Part shown: positions 9,833 to 26,156 of the stretch, in pieces
Numbering within the stretch: position 1 is the stretch's first letter
Layout: each line of letters begins with the position of its first letter
Assembly (NCBI GenBank): GCA_947259215.1
Contig: CAMYLJ010000024.1
Span: forward strand, 49,005-110,355
Origin: an uncultured delta proteobacterium
GTDB taxonomy: Bacteria > Myxococcota_A > UBA9160 > JAFDET01
Direction: 5' to 3'
Length of the DNA stretch: 61,351 nucleotides
Translations under genes and position numbers: made by a program
The notes under the pieces: generated by a model
Databases searched by the model: none
What the model was told of the DNA's origin: nothing
What the model saw: only the letters and a program-made list of their open reading frames with translations

Positions 9833-10201
9833 TCATCCCTCGAGCTGCGCTCGAAGGACGGCCTTCAAGTCTCCGTCGTCCCATGGCTTTGCTACCAGGG
9901 CACTCACGCCGAGCTGCGCCAGCCGCTGCCGCGGCACCTCCTCGGGCCAGCCGGTCAGGAGCACCCGCTGCGCTCCGGGACACAGGCGCGCCACCTCCGC
10001 CAGGAGCTGGAGTCCACTCATCCCCGGCATCTTCTGGTCGCTCACCACCACGTCCACGGGACGCTGGCGCAGCAATGCCAGCGCCTCGTCCGGGGTCTCC
10101 GCCAGCAGGATCTCCCAGCCTTCGCGGCGGAGCGTGCGGCGCAGCGCCGACAGGATGCGCGCCTCGTCGTCGACGAACAGGAAGCTCGGCGGGGCGCTCA
10201 C
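9833..10201 (-). CDS. single-domain response regulator
   Basis: 122-residue receiver protein (CheY-like). The acidic pair is in FLFVDDEARIL, the phosphoacceptor Asp in VVVSDQKMPGMSG, and the conserved Thr and Lys in VLLTGW and LVAKPWDD. There is no output domain, so it signals by protein contact or phosphorelay. GTG at 10201 overlaps the kinase stop (GTGA), so it is translationally coupled to the histidine kinase and is its likely partner. The pattern ALVAKPWDDGDLKAVL is typical of RpfG/HD-GYP-type receivers, but no HD domain follows. Confidence 0.88.
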   Translation of the reverse strand: MSAPPSFLFVDDEARILSALRRTLRREGWEILLAETPDEALALLRQRPVDVVVSDQKMPGMSGLQLLAEVARLCPGAQRVLLTGWPEEVPRQRLAQLGVSALVAKPWDDGDLKAVLRAQLEG

Positions 10202-12210
10202 CCGCGCCTCTCGGCGTCCCCTGCAGCGGGGCTCACGGGCAGCACCACCTCGAAGGTCGCTCCGTGGGGCCGGCGATTGCGGGCGCGCAGGCTGCCACCG
10301 TGCTTGCGCACGATGCTGAAGCAGGTGGAGAGCCCGAGCCCCACGCCGACCCCCACCTCCTTGGTGGTGAAGAAGGGGTCGAAGATCCGGTCGAGCTGCT
10401 CCGGCGCGATCCCCACGCCGCTGTCGCTGACGGCGACGATCACCCGCTCGCCCCGCAGCTCGGTCACCAGCTCGATCTCGCCGCGCTCCCCCGAGTCTGC
10501 CAGGCGCTCCTCGATGGCCTGGTAGGCGTTCACCAGCAGGTTCATGAAGACCTGCTTCAGCTGCATCGGGAACCCGTCCACCGGGGGCAGGTCGGCGTAG
10601 CGCTTCTTCAGCACCACCGAGTGTTTCATCATGCTCCACACGATGTTGGCGGTGGAGTCGAGACATTGGTTCACGTCTGCGGGCACCCGCTCCTCGCCGT
10701 CCGCCCGCGAGAAGTCGCGCAGATCGCGCACGATGTGCCGGATCCGCTCCGAGCCTTCCTGAGACTCGCGGATGGCCTTCTCGAAGTCGTCCAGCACGAA
10801 CTCGGCGTCGAGCTCCCGCGCCAATGCCTCCAGCGCCTCACCCGCGCGGCGGATGCCTTCGACCTGGCCGTCGTCGAGGGTCTTGCGAAGGTCGCCGACC
10901 TGGCTCCAGAGGCGGCGCAGGTCCGACAGGTAGTCGGCCATCTGGAAGAGATTGGCGTGGATGAAGCCCATGGGGTTGTTGATCTCGTGGGCCACGCCGG
11001 CCGCGAGCTGGCCGATCGAGGCCATCTTCTCCGTCTGGAGCACCTGGCGCTGAAGCAGGGTGATCTCCGTCAGGTCCTGGAAGATCGCCACGGCGCCGAG
11101 GCGCGTACCGTCGGCGTCGACCAGGGGTGCGCAGGAGATCCCGACGGGCACGACGGAGCCGTCCGCCCGGGTGAGGATCGTCTCGGCGCCCCGGAAGCGC
11201 TCGCCCCGCTGGAGGCTGCGAGCCAGCAGGGCACCCTGCCCCTGCGCGTTCGAGAACCAGTCCCAGACCGAGCGGCCGCGCGGATCGTCGCCAGCCGCTC
11301 CCAGGATCTGGGAGGCCATGGCGTTGGCGAAGGTGATGACGCCGCGCGTGTCCACCACCAGCAGCGCGCTGTTCAGGTTCTGGATGATGTTCTCGTTGTA
11401 ACGCCTCAGGTCGGCGATCCGTTTCGCGAGGGTCTCGCGCTCGGTCACGTCGGCGAGCAGCAGGAGGGCGCGACCCTCGTCGTCCAGCCGCTGCGCGCGC
11501 ACGTCGTAGAAGATGGGCGAGCCGTCCGGAGCCACGCCGCGCGCCAGGGCCGGCACCGCCGGATGGCCGGCGCGGGCCCGCTCCAGTGCCGCCGGAATCG
11601 CACCGGTCTCGAGCAGCTCCGACGGCAGCACCTCGTCGAGGCGGCGGCCTGGCAGCCGGCCCGACGAGCCCCAGGCAGCCGTGAAGGCCGGGTTCGCCGT
11701 CACCAGCCGGCCGGCATCGTCCACCACGGCGATCGCCGCCGGGATCTCGCTCACGATGGCCGCGTTCAGGGTCTCGAGCCAGGCCAGGCGGTCCGCCACC
11801 CGGCGCCGCTCCCGCTCTCCCCGGGTGCGACGCAGCTGCTCCAGCGCCACCGAGGCCAACGCCTGGCCCGCGTCCACCCCCGCCACCACACAGTCGGCGG
11901 CGCCGCGTCGGAACCACTCCACGGCCGCGGCGTCCGCAGCGTCCGCGGCCACGGCGAGCACCGGCGGTCCGGCTCCGCGCGCCTGGGCCAGGAGCGCTTC
12001 CGCTTCGCCGGGCGAGCCGCCGTCCACCACCACCAGGTCCGCGTCCGCGGAAGCCGCCAGGCCCGCCGCGGCGGAATCGAACACGTCCACGCGAACGCCG
12101 GCCCCGAGCCCCCGCAGCGCGCGCAGCGTGCCGTGGGGATCCGAACCCTCCGGACGGTCGCTGCCCGGTCGCACGATGACGATGTGGGCGGAGGACGTGA
12201 TCTCGCTCAC
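10198..12210 (-). CDS. hybrid-like PAS sensor histidine kinase with N-terminal pseudo-receiver
   Basis: 670 residues, no clear membrane segment, so probably cytoplasmic. Order: receiver-like domain (about 8-125) that lacks the acidic pair (IVIVRPGSD) and the conserved Lys; PAS (about 150-260, VVDDAGRLVTANPAF); PAS (about 270-385, VVDTRGVITFANAMA); HisKA with GVAHEINNPMG (His near 406); and HATPase_c with NLLVNAYQAI, VSDSGVGIAPEQ and GLGLS. It starts with GTG 48 bases after the NtrC-type gene and is followed by a coupled response regulator. This gives a three-gene operon in the order NtrC-type regulator, kinase, receiver. The kinase could phosphorylate either receiver. Confidence 0.9.
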   Translation of the reverse strand: MSEITSSAHIVIVRPGSDRPEGSDPHGTLRALRGLGAGVRVDVFDSAAAGLAASADADLVVVDGGSPGEAEALLAQARGAGPPVLAVAADAADAAAVEWFRRGAADCVVAGVDAGQALASVALEQLRRTRGERERRRVADRLAWLETLNAAIVSEIPAAIAVVDDAGRLVTANPAFTAAWGSSGRLPGRRLDEVLPSELLETGAIPAALERARAGHPAVPALARGVAPDGSPIFYDVRAQRLDDEGRALLLLADVTERETLAKRIADLRRYNENIIQNLNSALLVVDTRGVITFANAMASQILGAAGDDPRGRSVWDWFSNAQGQGALLARSLQRGERFRGAETILTRADGSVVPVGISCAPLVDADGTRLGAVAIFQDLTEITLLQRQVLQTEKMASIGQLAAGVAHEINNPMGFIHANLFQMADYLSDLRRLWSQVGDLRKTLDDGQVEGIRRAGEALEALARELDAEFVLDDFEKAIRESQEGSERIRHIVRDLRDFSRADGEERVPADVNQCLDSTANIVWSMMKHSVVLKKRYADLPPVDGFPMQLKQVFMNLLVNAYQAIEERLADSGERGEIELVTELRGERVIVAVSDSGVGIAPEQLDRIFDPFFTTKEVGVGVGLGLSTCFSIVRKHGGSLRARNRRPHGATFEVVLPVSPAAGDAERRG

Positions 12211-12258: not shown

Positions 12259-13698
12259 CTATCCGATCGGTCGGACCCGACCAACCCCGACGCCCTTCGG
12301 TGTCAGGCCGTGTTTCGCCAGCTTGCGATAGAGCGTGCTGCGCCCGACGCGCAGCCGACGCGCAGCCTCGCTGGCATCGCCGCCGGTCAGCTGCAGGGCC
12401 CGCTCGAGCGCGCTCTTCTCGTAGGCCTCGAGACAGAGCGGAAGGTCCGTGTCCAGCGGCGTGCGGGCGGCGGCCCGACCGCGTCCGGCGAGCGGCAGGT
12501 CCGCGAGCCGCAGGCGTGGTCCGGGCGCCAGGGCCAGGGCGGACTCCACGGTGTTCTCGAGCTCGCGCACGTTCCCCCGCCATTCGTAGCCGACCAGGGC
12601 TTCGAGCGCGTCGTCCTCGATCCCGGCTACCGACGCCTCGTCACGCCGGTGGCGCGCCAGGAAGTGGTGCGCGAGCAGCGGCACGTCCTCCCGACGCTCC
12701 CGCAGCGGCGGGATGTGCACGCGCACCACGTCGAGGCGATAGAAGAGGTCCTGGCGGAACGCGCCCTCCGCGATCATGCCTTCGAGGTCGCGGTGGGTGG
12801 CCGCGATCACGCGCAGGTCCACCGGCACGGCCTCGGAGGCGCCCACCGGCCGCACCTCGCCTTCCTGCAGCGCGCGCAGGAGCTTGGCCTGCACGTTCAC
12901 GGGCAGCTCGCCGATCTCGTCCAGGAAGAGCGTCCCGCCCTCGGCCCGGCGGAACAGGCCCGGCGAGCCCACGGCCCCGGTGAACGCGCCCGGCTCGTGG
13001 CCGAAGAGCTCGCTCTCGATGATGGACTCGGGCAGCGCCCCGCAGTCCACGGGCACGAAGGGGCCGCCCGCCCGGCGCGAGACGGCGTGGATGGCCCGGG
13101 CCACCAGCTCCTTGCCGGTTCCGCTCTCCCCGTGGATCAGGACCCGGCTCTCGTTGTCGCGGAGCCCCTCGATCCGGCGGGTGAGCGCCCGCATTCCGGG
13201 CGACGCCCCCACCAGCTCGGGGACCGCCTCCCGATCGCGCAGCTGGCGCTCCAGGGCCCGGTTGCGCAGCACGAGGGAACGCCGCTCGAGGGCCTTGCGC
13301 ACGGTGGTGCGGACCCGGTGCACGTCGTCGAAGGGCTTCGCCAGGTAGTCGAAGGCGCCCCGGCGCATGCAGCCGACGGCACTCTCGATGGTGGCATGGC
13401 CCGTCATCATGACCACTTCCACCTCGGGCCGCTCCCGCTTCACGCGCTCGAGCAGGTCGAGGCCGCTGGTCTCCCGCAGCTTCAGGTCCAGCAGGACCAC
13501 GGCCAGGCGCGGGTCGGGCAGCAGGCGCTCCAGCTCGGCGGCGGTCTCGCCCAGGAGCACCGGATGGCCCTCCCCCTCCAGGACGCGCCGCAGGGCGCGC
13601 AGGAGCAGGGGCTCGTCGTCCAGCACCAGCACGGCGGGAGCCGGGTCGCTGCCGAGAGGGGACCCGGGCGGATGGGGGATGTCGCGCGCGGCCTCCAC
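12259..13698 (-). CDS. NtrC-family sigma-54 activator (REC-AAA+-Fis)
   Basis: 479-residue bacterial enhancer-binding protein. Receiver: LVLDDEP, phosphoacceptor in VVLLDLKL, Lys in YLAKPFDD. AAA+ domain: Walker A GESGTGKE, an intact sigma-54-contacting GAFTGA loop, Walker B LFLDEIGELP, and the sensor region FYRLDVVRVHIPPLRERREDV. A C-terminal Fis-type helix-turn-helix is seen (ASEAARRLRVGRSTLYRKL). GTG at 13698 is the first start giving a complete receiver; upstream in-frame sequence is non-protein-like. It is divergent from a second NtrC-type gene across a 138-base region with palindromes, and leads the kinase operon. Its targets are unknown, but a sigma-54 promoter lies at 15510. Confidence 0.9.
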   Translation of the reverse strand: MEAARDIPHPPGSPLGSDPAPAVLVLDDEPLLLRALRRVLEGEGHPVLLGETAAELERLLPDPRLAVVLLDLKLRETSGLDLLERVKRERPEVEVVMMTGHATIESAVGCMRRGAFDYLAKPFDDVHRVRTTVRKALERRSLVLRNRALERQLRDREAVPELVGASPGMRALTRRIEGLRDNESRVLIHGESGTGKELVARAIHAVSRRAGGPFVPVDCGALPESIIESELFGHEPGAFTGAVGSPGLFRRAEGGTLFLDEIGELPVNVQAKLLRALQEGEVRPVGASEAVPVDLRVIAATHRDLEGMIAEGAFRQDLFYRLDVVRVHIPPLRERREDVPLLAHHFLARHRRDEASVAGIEDDALEALVGYEWRGNVRELENTVESALALAPGPRLRLADLPLAGRGRAAARTPLDTDLPLCLEAYEKSALERALQLTGGDASEAARRLRVGRSTLYRKLAKHGLTPKGVGVGRVRPIG

Positions 13699-13750: not shown

Positions 13751-13836
13751 TTTCCCCCGAGGCCGGGCGGCTTGAAGGGCCGCCCCGGGGTCCGTAGAAT
13801 CCAGATGCCCCCCTCCGCCCCGCGGAGGAGACCCCA

Positions 13837-15231
13837 CTGACGAAGTCCGCCGTTCTCGTCGTCGACGACGAGGAGCTCTATCGCCGCGCCCTCGAGCGCA
13901 TCCTCGCTCGGGGCGGCTACGACGTGACCTGCGCCCGGGACGCCGCCGAGGCCATGGGGATCGTGTCGAGCCAGCATCTCGACCTGGTGCTCTGCGACGT
14001 CAAGATGCCCGGCGTCAACGGCATCGAGCTGGTCCGCCAGATCAAGGACTACGACGCCGACCTGCCCTGCATCGTGATGACCGGGTACGGAACGCCCGAG
14101 AACTCGGTGGAAGCCCTGCGCGCGGGAGCGTTCTGGTACCTGGAGAAACCCTTCGAGCAGGGAAACCTGGACGCGGTCCGGCGCCTGGTGGAGCAGGCCA
14201 TCGAGCACGGCCGCCTGAAGGCCGAGAACCGCCAGCTCCAGAACCAGCTCCGCATGCGGTACCGCTTCGAGAACATCGTTGGCCACAGCCCGGGCCTGCG
14301 GCAGGTGCTGGAGACGGTGGAGAAGATCGCCGACAGCGACAGCACCATCCTGGTCCGGGGCGAGAGCGGCACCGGCAAGGAGCTGATCGCCCGGGCCATC
14401 CACTTCAACAGCGCGCGCAGCGAGCGCATGATGGTCACCGTCAACTGCGGCGCGATCCCCGAGGAGCTGCTGGAGTCCGAGCTCTTCGGGCACCTGCGCG
14501 GCGCCTTCACCAGCGCCATCGCCCATCGCGAGGGGCGCTTCGCCCTGGCCGACGGCGGCACCATCTTCCTGGACGAGATCGGCGACATGAGCCAGACGCT
14601 CCAGGTGAAGCTGCTGCGCGTGCTCCAGGACCGGACCTTCGAGCCGGTGGGCTCGTCCAAGACGGTGAAGGTGGACGTTCGCGTCGTGGCGGCGACCCAC
14701 CAGGACCTGGAGGATGCCATGGCGCGGGGCCGCTTCCGCGAGGACCTCTTCTATCGCCTGAACGTGATCCCCATCGAGGTGCCGCCGCTGCGCGAGCGGC
14801 GTGAGGACATCCCGCTGCTGGTCCACCACTTCCTCGACGTGGTGAACCAGGAGAAGGGCAAGCAGATCGAGGGCGTGAGCCCCGACGCCATGCAGCTGCT
14901 GGTGGACTGGTACTGGCCCGGCAACGTGCGCGAGCTGGAGAACGTGATGGAGCGCATGGTGCTGCTCAAGGGCGAGGGCGAGATCGGAACCGAGGATCTC
15001 CCGGAAGCCGTCCGCGACGGCCGCGACACCCCGCGGGCCCGCGCGCCGCGGATTCCGAGCAGCGGGATCGCCTACAACGAGCTGGTGGGCGACTTCGAGA
15101 CGGATCTGATCCTGCAAGCGCTCGAGCAGACCGGCTGGAACAAGAACCGCGCCGCCCAGCTCCTGGGCCTCAACCGGACCACCCTGCTCGAGAAGATCAA
15201 GAAGAAGAACCTGGAACCCCGGGACGAGTAG
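13837..15231 (+). CDS. NtrC-family regulator with GAFTSA loop, probable CTG start
   Basis: 464-residue REC-AAA+-Fis regulator. Receiver VLVVDDEELYRR, phosphoacceptor in LVLCDVKMPG, Lys in YLEKPFEQG. AAA+: GESGTGKE Walker A, LFGHLRGAFTSA (the usual GAFTGA has Ser for the second Gly), LDEIGDMS Walker B, FYRLNVIPIEVPPLRERRED. The Fis-type helix-turn-helix is NKNRAAQLLGLNRTTLLEKI. The receiver's acidic pair is encoded upstream of the first conventional start (GTG 13924). The only plausible start after the in-frame stop at 13795 is CTG at 13837, with GGAGGAG 6 bases upstream. It lies upstream of the sigma-54 promoter and sigma-factor gene at 15510-16347, which it may control. Confidence 0.88.
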   Translation: MTKSAVLVVDDEELYRRALERILARGGYDVTCARDAAEAMGIVSSQHLDLVLCDVKMPGVNGIELVRQIKDYDADLPCIVMTGYGTPENSVEALRAGAFWYLEKPFEQGNLDAVRRLVEQAIEHGRLKAENRQLQNQLRMRYRFENIVGHSPGLRQVLETVEKIADSDSTILVRGESGTGKELIARAIHFNSARSERMMVTVNCGAIPEELLESELFGHLRGAFTSAIAHREGRFALADGGTIFLDEIGDMSQTLQVKLLRVLQDRTFEPVGSSKTVKVDVRVVAATHQDLEDAMARGRFREDLFYRLNVIPIEVPPLRERREDIPLLVHHFLDVVNQEKGKQIEGVSPDAMQLLVDWYWPGNVRELENVMERMVLLKGEGEIGTEDLPEAVRDGRDTPRARAPRIPSSGIAYNELVGDFETDLILQALEQTGWNKNRAAQLLGLNRTTLLEKIKKKNLEPRDE

Positions 15232-15509
15232 GCGCCCACCCGCGTCCGCCGGGTTCGCAATTCGGCACCCGGGCGACGGATTCGTAACTCCCGCGTCGGG
15301 AATCCGTCGCGCCCGCGGGCCGCTCCGCCCGCCCCGCCCCTGCCTGCCGCACCGGGCGGCAGCCGCGCTCCGCAATCCGCTGCGCCCGGGCGCTGCGGCT
15401 CCGACACCGAAAAGTCCTGTGTAGCTCAGGAGTTGCCGCCGCCGACACCCGCCTGGGGCGGCGTCCCTGCCGGCCGGCTGCCGCCTGGCTGCGGGTCGGG
15501 CGAAACGCT
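15232..15509. other. long intergenic region with stem-loops
   Basis: No gene is supported here. It holds an 11-bp inverted repeat (GCGACGGATTC at 15273-15283 and GAATCCGTCGC at 15300-15310, 16-base loop) that may end the NtrC-type transcript. It also holds a perfect 12-base palindrome GCGCCCGGGCGC at 15382-15393, nested within AGCCGC/GCGGCT arms (15361-15366 and 15405-15410). No T-run follows either structure. The downstream part leads to the sigma-54 promoter and could contain activator sites. Confidence 0.5.
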
Positions 15510-15526
15510 TGGCATGGGCCGTGCTT
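15510..15526 (+). promoter_or_regulatory. sigma-54 promoter for the FliA/WhiG-type sigma gene
   Basis: TGGCATGGGCCGTGCTT matches the RpoN consensus TGGCACG-N4-TTGCW at nearly every position. The invariant GG (15511-15512) and GC (15523-15524) are spaced exactly 12 bases start to start. Transcription would begin near 15536, about 44 bases before the sigma-factor ATG. Two NtrC-family activators are encoded just upstream. Confidence 0.65.
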
Positions 15527-15579: not shown

Positions 15580-16347
15580 ATGGAGACCCTGCTCCGCGCG
15601 GCCAAAGAGAAAGAGAAAGAGATTCCGGCGACGCTCAAGGAGCAGCTCGTTCTCGAGCACACCCCACTGATCCGTTACATCGTGAACCGCATCGCGGTCC
15701 GCTTGCCGTCCCACATCGACCTCGACGATCTGCACAACACCGGTGTCATCGGCCTGATGGACGCCATCGAGAAGTACGACCCCGAGAAGAACTGCAAATT
15801 CAAGACCTACGCCGAGTTCCGGATCAAGGGCGCCATCCTGGACCAGCTGCGCTCCCTCGACTGGGTTCCGCGCAGCGTGCGCCAGAAGAGCCGCAAGCTC
15901 GAGCGCGCCTACGGCGAGGTGGAGCAGCGCCTCGGCCGCCAGGCCAACGAGGACGAGGTGGCGGACTCCCTCGGTCTCCAGATCGAGAAGTTCCACGAGC
16001 TGTTGAACCAGGTGCGAGGGATCTCGCTCGTCAACCTGGAGGAGATCCGAGGCAACGGCGCCGAAGGCGACCGCACCGGAGGCTACGCGGACATTGTCGA
16101 GGACGTGAACTCGGAGAACCCCTTCGCCTCGCTCAAGCTCACCGAGAGCAAGCGGATCATCTCCGACACCATCGGAACCCTGCCGGAGAAGGAGCGCCTG
16201 GTCGTCTCCTTCTACTACTACGAAGATCTGAACATGAAGGAGATCGGCTCGATCCTCGGGATCACCGAATCCCGCGTGTGCCAGATCCACACCAAGGCCA
16301 TGCTGCGCCTGCGGTCGAAGCTCAAGGGGCAGGTGGACCGGGCGTAG
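15580..16347 (+). CDS. fliA: FliA/WhiG-family sigma factor (sigma-28 type)
   Basis: 255-residue group 3 sigma factor. Region 2: LIRYIVNRIAVRLPSHIDLDDL, VIGLMDAIEKYD and FKTYAEFRIKGAILDQLRSLDWVPRSVRQ. The last block is the FliA/WhiG hallmark that includes the DW-x-PRSVR segment. Region 3 and region 4 follow (LPEKERLVVSFYYYEDLNMKEIGSILGITESRVCQIH). ATG at 15580 has GGAGG 4 bases upstream; longer in-frame extensions are non-protein-like. The gene lies behind a near-consensus sigma-54 promoter, giving a possible sigma-54 to sigma-28 cascade. No flagellar genes are in the window, so the regulon could be motility or something else; the name fliA is by family. Confidence 0.88.
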   Translation: METLLRAAKEKEKEIPATLKEQLVLEHTPLIRYIVNRIAVRLPSHIDLDDLHNTGVIGLMDAIEKYDPEKNCKFKTYAEFRIKGAILDQLRSLDWVPRSVRQKSRKLERAYGEVEQRLGRQANEDEVADSLGLQIEKFHELLNQVRGISLVNLEEIRGNGAEGDRTGGYADIVEDVNSENPFASLKLTESKRIISDTIGTLPEKERLVVSFYYYEDLNMKEIGSILGITESRVCQIHTKAMLRLRSKLKGQVDRA

Positions 16348-16452: not shown

Positions 16453-17181
16453 TTACTCGTCGTCCACCCGAACGAGGAGGACCGTGATGTTGTCCTCCCC
16501 ACCCCGCGCGTTCGCCAGATCCACCAGCCGCTCGCACGCCGCCTCGAGCCCGAGCCCGCTGCCAAGGACCTTTGCGATCTCGTCGTCGTGGACGTGGCTC
16601 GTGAGGCCGTCGCTGCACAGGGCGAACTGGTCGCCCGCTTGGAGTCCCAGCTCTGCCAGGTCGGGCTCCACCCGCGCGCGCACGCCGAGCGCCCGGGTCA
16701 GGACGTGGCGGTGGGGATGCTCCCGCGCGGCGTCGGCGCTGATCTCGTTGCGGCGCACGAGCTCGCCCACCAGCGAGTGATCGTCGGTGAGCTGGCGGAT
16801 CCGGCCGCTCCGCACGCGGTAAGCGCGGCTGTCGCCCACGTGGGCCACGGCAGCGCGATCCCCGGCCACCAGGATGCTGACGACGGTGGTGCCCATCCCC
16901 TGGAGCTCCGGCCGCTTCTGGGCCGTGGTGAAGATCTCGTGGTTGGCGTGCAGCACCGCGGTGCGCAGGCGCTCCGTCAGGCTGCCTCCGGAGGAGGCCG
17001 ACACGTCGACGGCCTTCACCACCGCCTCGCAGGCCAGCTGGCTCGCGATCTGGCCGGCCGCGTGCCCGCCCATGCCATCCGCCACCACGAAGAACTGGTG
17101 GTCCTCCGCCACGGCGTACGAGTCCTCGTTGGCTCGGCGCTGCTGGCCCACGTCGCTTGCGGCAGCCGCCTCGAGCTTCAT
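16453..17181 (-). CDS. PP2C-family Ser/Thr phosphatase
   Basis: 242-residue PPM/PP2C phosphatase (Stp1/PrpC type), which dephosphorylates Ser/Thr on proteins using two metals. Visible motifs in order: SDVGQQRRANEDSY (motif 1), VVADGMGGHAAG (motif 2), AHVGDSRAYR (motif 5/6), LTDDHSLVGELV, LALCSDGLTSHV (motif 8) and EDNITVLLVRVDD (motif 11). ATG at 17181 starts cleanly with MKLEAAAASDVG. No Hanks-type kinase is encoded nearby, so its partner lies elsewhere. It is convergent with the sigma-factor gene, with 105 bases between them. Confidence 0.92.
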   Translation of the reverse strand: MKLEAAAASDVGQQRRANEDSYAVAEDHQFFVVADGMGGHAAGQIASQLACEAVVKAVDVSASSGGSLTERLRTAVLHANHEIFTTAQKRPELQGMGTTVVSILVAGDRAAVAHVGDSRAYRVRSGRIRQLTDDHSLVGELVRRNEISADAAREHPHRHVLTRALGVRARVEPDLAELGLQAGDQFALCSDGLTSHVHDDEIAKVLGSGLGLEAACERLVDLANARGGEDNITVLLVRVDDE

Positions 17182-17316
17182 GCCGTGGCCCCTCCTGGGT
17201 ACCGGGATTCCCTGCGCAGGGGCTTGAGCGCCCTGCCCCGCGGGTGGTATCGGAGCCCCTGCCGGACGACTTGACCCCGCACCCCTGGCGCGCGGGGCGC
17301 GGACGTGCAAAAAGAA

Positions 17317-17411: not shown

Positions 17412-17429
17412 GCCGCGGTGGGGGGAACC

Positions 17430-19043
17430 ATGGCCAGGAAGCTGCTTCTCGCAGACGACTCCGTGACCATCCAGAAGGTCGTGGGGATCAGTTTCGCGAA
17501 CGAGGACATCGAGCTCGTCACCGTCGACAACGGCGACGACGCCGTCGATCGGGTCCAGGACTCTCCGCCGGACATCGTGCTGGCAGACGTCGTGATGCCC
17601 GGCAAGACCGGCTACGAGGTCTGCGAGACGATCAAGACCAACCCGCAGCTCGCGCACATCCCGGTGCTGCTGCTGACCGGCACCTTCGAGGCCTTCGACG
17701 AGGAGCGCGCCCGCCAGGTGCAGGCCGACGGGCACATCACCAAGCCGTTCGAGGCCCAGAGTCTGGTGGACCACGTGAACCGGCTGCTCTCCCGGGCGCG
17801 CCCGGCGGCGCCCGCGGCCCCGGCGCCCGACGTGGACATCGCGCCGGCTCCGACGAGCGTCGAAGCGACCCCGGCCCCGGCCGCCGCCGCCACCCCCGCC
17901 GACGACGACGCCTTCGACTTCTTCGAGGATGACTTCGGCACGGCCCCCGATCTCGAGCCCCCGCCGGCGGACCCCGGACGGGACACGGATCTGGAGCTGC
18001 CGACGCCCCCGGAGAGCACCCAGACTCCGTCCACGACGGCATTCGAGCTGGACGCGGGCGAGAGCGGCTTCGACTTCGCACCGGTGGTGGAAGAGCCGGC
18101 ACCGGGCCCCTCGGACGCGCCCACCGAGCTGGCGCCTCCGCGCCCCGGCGCTGACGCCACGGTGGCCCTGATGGATGCACCGGCGGACGCCGACTGGCCC
18201 TCCAGCGACGACGTCGACTCCGCATTCGACGAGGACAGCCTCGGACGCGGGACCCCCGCCTCGGCGCCGGACGCCCCGCTGGGGGACGCGGCGCCCTCGG
18301 CAGAGCCGCCCCCGCTGGCCCTGGAGCCGCCGCCCGCCCGGGCCGACGAGGCCCCGGCCGCCGGCGACGCGCTGGATTTCGGCTTCGAGGCCGAGGCAGA
18401 GCCCGAGCAGGCCGACCCCCTGGGCGCGTTCGACGCCCCGGACGCGGCCCGCGAGACCCTGCTCGACCCGGACGCCGACGATGCCTTCGCGGTCTCGTCG
18501 TCGGATCTGGGAGAGTCGCTGGAGGCGCCCGCGGCGGTCTCCGCCCCGGAGGAGCCGCCGGCGTCTCCCATGTCCGACTTCTTCGCGGCTCCCGAACCGG
18601 CGCCCGAGCCCGTGGCGCTGCCCGAGCCCATGGCACTGCCCGAGCCCATGGCGCTGCCCGAGCCCGACGCCGAGCCGCCGCGCTCGCTGGAGGAGCCCGA
18701 GCCGCTGGAGCTCACCGAGGTGACGCCGGTTCCTGCGGGCGCGCCCGAGCTGCCCGTCGTCGAGGTCTCCGAGCCCGGGCCGACCGGCCTGCCCGAGCCG
18801 GAGCCTGCGGCAGCGCCGGCCGCCGAGCCGGCCGGGGCCACGCCGGACCTCACGCCGATGATGCGCGAGCGCGTCCACGACTCGCTGGAGAAGATCGCCT
18901 GGGAGGCGTTCGCCGACCTGCCCGAGACCATCGTGCGCCAGGCCATCGCCAAGGTCGAGGAGATCGCCTGGGAGGTGATCCCGCAGATGGCCGAGGCGCT
19001 GGTGCGGGAGGAGATCCGGCGCATGAAGGGGGAGTCCGAGTAG
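17430..19043 (+). CDS. response regulator with long acidic linker and C-terminal helical domain
   Basis: 537 residues. The N-terminal receiver (1-125) is complete: LLLADDSVTIQKVV, phosphoacceptor in DIVLADVVMPG, Thr in LLLTGTFEAFDE, Lys in HITKPFEA. A ~345-residue Pro/Ala/Glu/Asp-rich, probably disordered linker follows, including the short repeat LPEPMA x2 near residues 395-410. The last ~60 residues are helical (MMRERVHDSLEKIAWEAF, then KVEEIAWEVIPQMAEALV) with a duplicated IAWE motif. Similar C-terminal helices occur in deltaproteobacterial receiver proteins such as those related to gliding/polarity factors, though FrzS itself is not claimed. ATG at 17430 is preferred over GTG 17418 because of the GGGGGG upstream. 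Confidence 0.82.
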   Translation: MARKLLLADDSVTIQKVVGISFANEDIELVTVDNGDDAVDRVQDSPPDIVLADVVMPGKTGYEVCETIKTNPQLAHIPVLLLTGTFEAFDEERARQVQADGHITKPFEAQSLVDHVNRLLSRARPAAPAAPAPDVDIAPAPTSVEATPAPAAAATPADDDAFDFFEDDFGTAPDLEPPPADPGRDTDLELPTPPESTQTPSTTAFELDAGESGFDFAPVVEEPAPGPSDAPTELAPPRPGADATVALMDAPADADWPSSDDVDSAFDEDSLGRGTPASAPDAPLGDAAPSAEPPPLALEPPPARADEAPAAGDALDFGFEAEAEPEQADPLGAFDAPDAARETLLDPDADDAFAVSSSDLGESLEAPAAVSAPEEPPASPMSDFFAAPEPAPEPVALPEPMALPEPMALPEPDAEPPRSLEEPEPLELTEVTPVPAGAPELPVVEVSEPGPTGLPEPEPAAAPAAEPAGATPDLTPMMRERVHDSLEKIAWEAFADLPETIVRQAIAKVEEIAWEVIPQMAEALVREEIRRMKGESE

Positions 19044-24036: not shown

Positions 24037-25128
24037 ATGGCCGAAGCGCAGAAGATCACGCTCAAGCTCTCCCCCCAGGCGCGCAAGTACGCCAGTCGGG
24101 AGGCACCGGTGCAGACGCGGCGCCTGGCGGCCCGCGGGGCGCTTCCGCTTCCGCCGCTGGAGCTGGCGACGGTGCTCTTCGCGCTGATGCACGATCCCGA
24201 CGCCGAGGTGAAGTCCACCGCCCGGGACAGCCTCGAGGGGCTCCCGCGCGACGTGGCCACCACCGTCCTCTCGGCCCCCGGACACCCGGCCCTGCTCTCG
24301 CACCTGGGCCACGTCCACCGCGAGGACAACCAGCTGATGGAGGCGCTGGCCCTGAACCCGGCGGTCAGCGACGAGACCTTCGTGTTCCTGGCCGAGCTGC
24401 CCTTCAAGCGGGTCGTGGACATCGTGGCCAACAACCAGCAGCGCCTGCTGCGCTGTCCCGCGATCGTCGACACCCTGGGCGCCAACCCGATGACGGGCCG
24501 CTCCGTGATCGACCGCATCCTCTCCTTCCTCGGGATCGACCGGCCCGAGGCCGAGGTGGTCGAGGAGACGGACGCCTTCGAGGAGCTGCCGGAGCTCTCC
24601 GAGATCACCGACGAGGCGGCGGCCTCGGCCCTGAGGGCCCTGCTGGGAGACGACGCGACCGGCATGGCACGGGAGCTGTTGGAAGAGGTCGAAGACGAGC
24701 TGGACGAGGATCAGAAGAACAACCTCTTCGCCCTGGTCCAGACCATGACGGTGATGCAGAAGATCAAGCTGGCGCGGATGGGGAACAAGGAGGCCCGGGG
24801 CCTGCTGGTGCGCGACCACAACAAGATCGTCGCCACGGCAGCCATCCGCAGCCCGAAGACCCGCGAGAACGAGGTCGCCCAGTACGCGAAGCTGCGAAAC
24901 GTCTCCGACGAGATCCTGCGCGTGATCGCGTCCAACCGCGAGTGGACCCGGAGCTATACCGTGAAGCTCTCCCTGGCCACGAATCCCAAGACGCCCCAGT
25001 CGTCGGCGATGAAGTTCCTGAACTACCTCCAGGAGCGCGACCTGCGCGCGATCACGAAGAGCAAGGACGTCCCGTCGGCGATCTCCACCCACGCCCGACG
25101 GATTCTCACCAAGAAGGGGAAACTCTGA
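24037..25128 (+). CDS. ARM/HEAT-like helical repeat protein
   Basis: 363-residue all-helical protein with no signal peptide or membrane segment. Repeated helical-hairpin units are visible: ALMHDPDAEVKSTARDSLEGLP, EALALNPAVSDETFVFLAELP, RDHNKIVATAAIRSPKTRE, and SLATNPKTPQSSAMKFLNYL. Several units share an N-P-x(2)-P/S-x-E/D-like turn. An acidic segment lies near residues 165-230. ATG at 24037 follows AGAGGA; upstream sequence is Arg/Pro-rich and not convincing. It is 73 bases behind the EF-G-like gene and coupled (TGATG) to the MglA-like GTPase. A scaffold or GTPase-effector role is inferred from that coupling. Confidence 0.78.
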   Translation: MAEAQKITLKLSPQARKYASREAPVQTRRLAARGALPLPPLELATVLFALMHDPDAEVKSTARDSLEGLPRDVATTVLSAPGHPALLSHLGHVHREDNQLMEALALNPAVSDETFVFLAELPFKRVVDIVANNQQRLLRCPAIVDTLGANPMTGRSVIDRILSFLGIDRPEAEVVEETDAFEELPELSEITDEAAASALRALLGDDATGMARELLEEVEDELDEDQKNNLFALVQTMTVMQKIKLARMGNKEARGLLVRDHNKIVATAAIRSPKTRENEVAQYAKLRNVSDEILRVIASNREWTRSYTVKLSLATNPKTPQSSAMKFLNYLQERDLRAITKSKDVPSAISTHARRILTKKGKL

Positions 25129-26156
25129 TGGCGGAGCTGAGCAGCGAGCGCGCCGAAGTGAACGCCCGCATCCTCTACTGGGGCGCGGAGGGCGCGGGGA
25201 AGTCCGCCAACCTGGCGCACGTCCACCGCAAGCTGCGGACCGACCACCGGGGCGAGCTCCGGCGCACCCCGACGGCCCTCGACCCGACCGTGGAGGTGGA
25301 GAGCCTGCCCATCACCCTGGGTGAGCTGGCCGGCAGGCAGGTGAAGCTCCAGATCGTGGCGGTGCCCGGGGCGCCCGAGCACGCGCCCACCCGCAAGCAG
25401 CTCCTCGACCGCGCCGACGGCGTGGTGCTGGTGGTGGACGCCTCGCCGGATCGCATCGACGCCAACCTGGAGTCGTTCGACGAGCTCCGGCGCGCCCTGT
25501 CGGCGTACGGACGCTCGCTGGACGAGCTGCCGCTGGTGGTGCAGTACAACAAGCGCGACCGCGCCGACGAGCTGATCCTGGAAGAGCTCTACAAGAAGCT
25601 CGACCTGCGGGGAGTCGCCGCCTTCGAGGCCGTGGCCAGCGAGGGCAAGGGCGTGCTCCAGGCGCTGACGACCATCTCGAAGCGCGTCATCAAGGCGCTG
25701 CGCGAGAGCGGCCTCGGGAGCGTGGAGAGCGCCCCCGGCACGCCGCGCGCGCCCGCGCCCGCGCCGCCGCCCCCGCCCCAGCCCCAGCCCTTGCTCGAGC
25801 CGGAGCCGGCGCCCGCGCAGGAGGCCGAGCCCCTGCCCGAGCCGCTGGAGCTCGAGCCCGTGGAGGCCGGGCTGGCCGCCGAGGAGCGCGATCCCGTGGC
25901 CGCCGCCCAGGCCGAGGCCGTGGCCCAACAGACCGAGGGCACGTTCGCCGAGTCGTTCGGCGCGCTGACGGCGCCCATGACGGCTCCCGCAGCCGGTCTC
26001 CCGCCCGGGTTGCGTCTCGACGCCGTCGGCACGCCGCGGCAGGCGGGCGACCGCGCGCTCGTCGTGCCGCTCGTGCTGCGGGACGCCGACGACCGGCCGC
26101 TGCGCGTGGAGCTGGCGATCACCCTCGACCTGCGGCCGGAGCCGGGCGGCGACTGA
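25128..26156 (+). CDS. MglA-like Ras-superfamily GTPase with C-terminal extension
   Basis: 342 residues. The GTPase domain (1-195) has the P-loop GAEGAGKS (19-26), RTPTALDP as switch I (likely Thr contact), a G3-like VAVPGAPEHAP in place of DxxG, VVLVVDASPD, and NKRD (141-144). This order and the YNKRD block match the MglA family of bacterial small GTPases that control polarity in gliding bacteria. A Pro/Ala/Glu linker (200-285) leads to a ~55-residue beta-rich tail. Like MglA it lacks the classical DxxG Asp. No MglB/roadblock gene is adjacent. It is coupled at both ends (TGATG and TGATG) to the helical-repeat and GAF genes. Confidence 0.83.
   Translation: MAELSSERAEVNARILYWGAEGAGKSANLAHVHRKLRTDHRGELRRTPTALDPTVEVESLPITLGELAGRQVKLQIVAVPGAPEHAPTRKQLLDRADGVVLVVDASPDRIDANLESFDELRRALSAYGRSLDELPLVVQYNKRDRADELILEELYKKLDLRGVAAFEAVASEGKGVLQALTTISKRVIKALRESGLGSVESAPGTPRAPAPAPPPPPQPQPLLEPEPAPAQEAEPLPEPLELEPVEAGLAAEERDPVAAAQAEAVAQQTEGTFAESFGALTAPMTAPAAGLPPGLRLDAVGTPRQAGDRALVVPLVLRDADDRPLRVELAITLDLRPEPGGD

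Follow-up and report, generated by a model that had tools for sequence, protein, structure and literature searches.

A conserved sigma-54 promoter ahead of a FliA/WhiG-family sigma factor gene and its probable link to type IV pilus genes in an order of Myxococcota

A sigma-54 promoter in front of a gene for a FliA/WhiG-type sigma factor recalls the cascades that order flagellar expression in many bacteria, and an element of this kind was described from the sequence of a 61,351-nucleotide stretch of DNA (hereafter the window) from an uncultured delta proteobacterium of the Myxococcota. Here we ask whether the promoter is real, which activator would open it, and which genes the sigma factor is likely to serve.

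The sigma-54 promoter and the sigma factor gene

The candidate promoter, TGGCATGGGCCGTGCTT, lies on the forward strand at 15510-15526, and its GG (15511-15512) and GC (15523-15524), within TGGCAY...TGCW, are 12 bases apart; when the sequence was re-read, the element, its position and its exact GG/GC spacing were as the preliminary description had given them. The box is 54 bp from the ATG of the sigma factor gene (15580), and the predicted transcription start, at about 15536, is 44 bases 5' of that codon. The pattern TGGCAYN6TGCW has one exact match in the window vs 0.26 expected (at least one in 22 of 100 shuffles) and 11 sites with at most one mismatch vs 8.1 expected. Because 0.26 exact matches are expected by chance, the site by itself is only mildly surprising.

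Its conservation is far more telling, and the comparison of orthologous upstream regions that had been suggested as a check returned the same element throughout. Scored against the sigma-54 consensus, a box reaches 14-15 of 16 in all 73 distinct orthologous loci (those with a sigma factor identity of 70% or more and no less than 100 bp of upstream DNA, after removal of duplicates, one genome often being present from two collections), vs mean best scores of 11.1-12.1 in shuffles of the same upstream regions, where no locus had more than 3 of 100 shuffles reaching the observed score. The strict pattern is found in 70 of the 73 loci compared and not in L098, L099 and L102; TGGCA and TGC are invariant in all 70, which carry a group-specific form, [GC]TGCTTT, in place of the consensus TTGCW. 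The distance from box to start codon ranges from 45 to 180 bp among the orthologous loci. RpoN is encoded once in the genome (PF04552, 212 bits vs a cut-off of 22.8), and this single copy, together with the box in every locus, supports the proposed sigma-54 control of the sigma factor gene. Because the box is conserved in orthologs, we accept that the element, as judged from its sequence, is a real sigma-54 promoter.

The downstream gene (15580-16347, forward strand) encodes a 255-residue protein with Pfam sigma-70 regions 2, 3 and 4, and its assignment to the FliA/WhiG type holds on the family model TIGR02479 (276 bits, cut-off 190). It also exceeds the cut-off of the FliA subfamily model NF005413 (254 vs 201) and does not reach that of the WhiG equivalog model (295 vs 343). 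By sequence, its closest relatives of solved structure are first Streptomyces WhiG (6pfv and 6pfj chains) and next FliA proteins. The source genome (5.70 Mb, 128 contigs, 95.7% complete) holds seven sigma-70 matches, of which only this one represents the FliA/WhiG family; the other six score 74-111 bits on the FliA/WhiG model (cut-off 190; five of them scored on the matched part only) and are better fitted by RpoD-, RpoS- or RpoH-type models.

Orthologs of the sigma factor (E up to 1e-40) occur in 68 of 79 genomes of the order, mostly at 74-92% identity, and in six of seven genomes of a sister order in the same class, at 65-75% identity, while the best matches elsewhere in the phylum are 39-48% identical. 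The named loci with an ortholog belong to metagenome-assembled Myxococcota and Deltaproteobacteria. Second copies of the sigma factor gene, 74-80% identical, were seen at L087, L089, L093 and L094, where the sigma-54 box is present and the response regulator gene described below is not adjacent; the gene content around these four copies indicated no clear function. Downstream of the sigma factor gene, the window also encodes a response-regulator protein whose long C-terminus carries no annotation (17418-19043), syntenic in many orthologous loci, and an Arf/small-GTPase-like open reading frame (24942-26156).

Candidate activators

The preliminary description placed two NtrC-type activators just upstream and proposed that one of them controls the sigma factor. 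Two such genes are indeed present, and only one of them, here called NtrC2 (13837-15231, forward strand, CTG start, GAFTSA loop), lies directly upstream; the other, NtrC1 (12259-13659, start approximate), is divergent on the minus strand. Next to NtrC1, a PAS-domain histidine kinase gene (10198-12210, minus strand) is, by synteny, a likely partner of NtrC1 and/or NtrC2. The proposal of local control is reasonable for NtrC2, the best candidate activator, whose ortholog precedes the sigma factor gene, in the same orientation, in 62 of 73 loci. NtrC1 orthologs (at least 50% identical) adjoin NtrC2 in 38 of 59 loci and are absent there in 21.

A second line of support is an enhancer-like dyad, CGTCG-N6-TGACG, found with at most one mismatch between NtrC2 and the sigma-54 box in 41 of 60 loci (the subset of the 62 loci with NtrC2 in which 60-480 bp separate the gene from the box), vs 0-3 of 60 in ten shuffles. 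Most copies are 190-205 bp upstream of the box, a position that suits an enhancer-binding protein. In the window, the corresponding putative activator site (15272-15311, forward strand, 200-240 bp upstream of the box) consists of TTCGTAAC and CGTCG-N6-CGTCG in TTCGTAA contexts; this dyad copy is degenerate, with two mismatches, and is outside the 41.

It is possible, although we think it unlikely, that the sigma-54 promoter is opened not by NtrC2 but by NtrC1 or by the PilR-like regulator encoded in the pilBTC operon described below. NtrC2 shares 46.5% identity with the PilR-like protein and 44% with NtrC1, and its loop departs from the GAFTGA that activators usually carry, being GAFTNA in 41 of 59 orthologs. 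One locus, L096, keeps the sigma-54 box with no NtrC2 alongside, and the PilR-like gene could naturally close a feedback loop. NtrC2 is favored as the probable activator by its place in most loci, by the frequent absence of NtrC1 beside it, and by the position of the conserved dyad between NtrC2 and the box.

The start of NtrC2 (window 13792-13839) is apparently CTG, and the aligned position in 57 orthologs reads CTG in 30, TTG in 9, GTG in 8 and ATG in 1. Just ahead of it, a short hairpin (13812-13828, forward strand) holds the NtrC2 ribosome-binding site in its 3' arm, and the motif CCTCCG-N2-9-CGGAG recurs in 35 of 57 orthologs. Such a hairpin, CCTCCG...CGGAGG, would mask the ribosome-binding site, which suggests conserved translational control.

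Candidate targets: pilus, polarity and flagellar genes

FliA-type boxes in these genomes take the form T[AC]AAG-N15-GCCGATA (spacer 16), and the published FliA/WhiG consensus is TAAA / GCCGATAA (PMC8325347). The exact pattern TAAAN{14,16}GCCGATAA was found in 42 of 79 genomes of the order, usually once in each and with a spacer of 16, whereas the reversed control gave few matches over the same genomes. Most of the 30 loci examined with an exact box run into the N-terminus of PilB as the next gene. In the source genome the exact box is on the contig that holds the window, about 14 kb before the start of the window, ahead of pilB, pilT, pilC, a histidine kinase gene and an NtrC-type (PilR-like) regulator gene, in that order. 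PilB and PilT exceed the cut-offs of their family models (810 bits vs 676 and 500 vs 319, respectively); PilC does not reach the cut-off of its model (607 vs 700).

Within 300 bp of pilB the box is present with at most three mismatches in 65 of 67 loci, with none in 31, one in 28, two in 5 and three in 1 (68 regions, with G026 left out as 69 bp without the pilB start; the two misses, G045 C546 and G013, are both truncated). Only 0.15% of 1300 shuffles reach two mismatches, all 20 regions upstream of PilB paralogs have 4-5 mismatches, and a FliA-type box with at most three mismatches precedes the sigma factor gene itself in 4 of 73 regions. A second operon, HTH-pilM(...)pilQ, carries the box TCAAGTCCCCGNAACC...GCCGATA[CG], with some variation, before a small HTH gene followed by pilM; this box is present in all 23 loci that offer 500 bp or more of upstream sequence, drawn from the best 30 loci after leaving out five with unlocated starts and two with short upstream regions. 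PilM and PilQ score over their family cut-offs. Conservation extends into the HTH-pilM box spacer (TCAAGTCCCCGGAACC), part of which is duplicated upstream of pilM in L310, a pattern that would fit the binding of a second protein.

Broader searches were less selective. In the source genome, boxes with a 15-base spacer gave 25 matches vs 18 in the reversed control, with no clear targets, the true spacer being 16; the relaxed pattern with three mismatches gave 323 matches vs 243 in the control and is uninformative alone. A strict search of the loci flanking the sigma factor gene returned scattered matches only. One FliA-type box with a single mismatch (L181, G000:C10:3538-3565, forward strand) was seen 114 bp before a gene for a 427-residue RpoD-like sigma factor, possibly a further sigma of the relay.

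Weaker boxes precede two further candidate targets. The PP2C-type phosphatase gene beside the sigma factor gene (16453-17184, minus strand, PF00481) is, on box conservation, a probable target, with the box TCAAG-N15-TCCGATAC upstream of it (17247-17274, minus strand); the best match has at most three mismatches in 39 of 49 distinct loci, and 11.6% of shuffles do likewise. Ahead of mglBA, 25 regions of 300 bp (from the best 30 loci, with four unlocated starts and one region of 100 bp left out) carry a box with 1-4 mismatches and a spacer that is always 16, and 9.6% of shuffles reach three mismatches or fewer. The name MglB here reflects a weak model match (89 bits, cut-off 200) together with a reading of the protein sequences. 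As the mglBA and PP2C boxes are weak, the argument for them rests on position and fixed spacer.

The distribution of the sigma factor agrees in part with these targets. Across the 79 genomes, 63 have both the sigma factor and pilM, six have neither, and five and five have one only (Fisher p=0.0006; p=0.0025 within the 46 genomes at least 90% complete), an association that is suggestive only, because assembly gaps can create joint absences. The three genomes without any PilB (G067, G071 and G074) also have no sigma factor. To the contrary, 7 of the 11 genomes that have no sigma factor keep the pilB box at zero or one mismatch: G002, G011, G015, G049 and G054 (74-87% complete), G077 (90%) and G075 (96%), the last of which is also without pilM at the threshold used.

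These seven genomes would fit a reading in which another sigma factor recognizes the GCCGATA boxes at the pil and mgl operons, or an ordinary repressor binds them, and the conservation of the pilM spacer beyond the two hexamers likewise allows that another protein binds. We regard this as improbable, since both parts of the box match the published FliA/WhiG consensus (PMC8325347) and keep a fixed 16-base spacer, and the six other sigma-70 matches are better fitted by models of other types. The FliA/WhiG-family sigma factor is the favored reader of the boxes.

The preliminary description had framed the locus by the sigma-54 to sigma-28 cascades of flagellar expression, and that frame did not hold. 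Neither FlhA nor flagellin was found in the source genome (95.7% complete). Within the order, FlhA occurs in 20 of 79 genomes and flagellin in 25; the sigma factor is present with neither in 46 of the 79 (and, among the 46 genomes whose completeness is 90% or more, in 23), and its presence has no association with flagellar markers (Fisher p=1.0). Upstream of relatives' flagellins (L122-L125, L377-L396), a sigma-54 box scoring at least 14.5 of 16 is present in 21 of 24 regions, the others being L394, which is only 45 bp long, and L377 and L389, which have neither kind of box. None of the 24 has a FliA-type box with two mismatches or fewer, the best match having three mismatches in L377 and 4-5 in all others. 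Two flavors of sigma-54 box can be told apart, as those of the flagellins mostly end in TTGCA and that of the sigma factor gene in [GC]TGCTTT.

A classical cascade, in which sigma-54 drives fliA and FliA drives the late flagellar genes, would match the textbook order in its sigma family and sigma-54 promoter, and 22 of the 68 sigma-positive genomes do have a flagellar marker, but it is already largely refuted by the missing markers and we hold it to be very improbable. A flagellar regulon as the output of the sigma factor was rejected on the same missing markers and on the sigma-54 boxes before flagellins.

A putative relay and its relation to known systems

As boxes precede pilus and polarity genes, the relay would be one of type IV pilus motility and polarity and not a flagellar one. 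We propose, with good though not full confidence, that an NtrC-type activator and sigma-54 switch on the FliA/WhiG-family sigma factor, which in turn serves the genes of polarity and type IV pilus motility. What the DNA shows directly is the boxes with their conservation, the identities of the genes and the absence of the two flagellar markers; that sigma-54 and the FliA/WhiG-family sigma factor use these boxes, and which activator acts, is what we infer from them. A signal from the kinase would reach an NtrC-type activator, most likely NtrC2, which, probably bound to the dyad conserved some 200 bp ahead of the box, would open the sigma-54 promoter. The FliA/WhiG-family sigma factor would then take RNA polymerase to the pilB-pilT-pilC-kinase-regulator and HTH-pilM(...)pilQ operons, and the weaker boxes would bring mglBA and the PP2C phosphatase gene under the same sigma factor.

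On a broader view, which we favor with less assurance, motility sigma factors have been swapped within one order of Myxococcota: flagellins would depend directly on sigma-54, and a sigma-54-driven FliA/WhiG-family sigma factor, highly conserved where flagella are lacking, would be dedicated to type IV pilus assembly and MglBA polarity. For a branch of the Myxococcota represented here by metagenome-assembled genomes alone, the relay offers a regulatory circuit, open to testing, for cell polarity and for movement by type IV pili. It also counsels caution, as fliA in a genome does not imply flagella, and sigma-54 plus FliA is not by default a flagellar hierarchy.

The PilS/PilR systems of Myxococcus and Pseudomonas exert sigma-54/NtrC-type control over pilA, the pilin gene being activated directly. 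Control of pili by sigma-54 and an NtrC-type regulator is common to both, whereas here it would pass through a second sigma factor acting on assembly operons. No report of a FliA-type sigma factor with type IV pili in Myxococcota was found in the open-licence literature, and what appears to be new is a link in Myxococcota between this sigma family and type IV pili, conserved across the order, with a sigma-54 promoter before the sigma factor gene and polarity genes among the candidate targets.

RpoN/FliA flagellar hierarchies (PMC3930126) likewise join sigma-54 and a FliA-type sigma factor in one motility program, but their output is flagella, whereas here it would be type IV pili. The same source describes Caulobacter flagellins as RpoN-dependent without FliA (PMC3930126), and the sigma-54 boxes before relatives' flagellins resemble that arrangement. 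In Actinoplanes missouriensis, FliA-family (WhiG-like) sigma factors are reported to direct type IV pilus genes and flagella (cited in PMC8325347); there the sigma factors also serve flagella, and the account as cited includes no sigma-54 layer. A close likeness is to Rubrobacter radiotolerans, whose WhiG is reported to drive type IV pilus genes under RsiG/c-di-GMP (PMC8325347): in both systems the sigma factor is of the FliA/WhiG family and TAAA / GCCGATAA promoters precede genes of type IV pili. Rubrobacter is an actinobacterium in which the anti-sigma factor RsiG holds WhiG with c-di-GMP, whereas in these Myxococcota the sigma factor gene is behind a sigma-54 promoter, the spacer is 16 and the candidate targets include mglBA and the PP2C gene. 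The relay described here would thus add to Rubrobacter a second, distant example in which a sigma factor of the flagellar type serves type IV pili.
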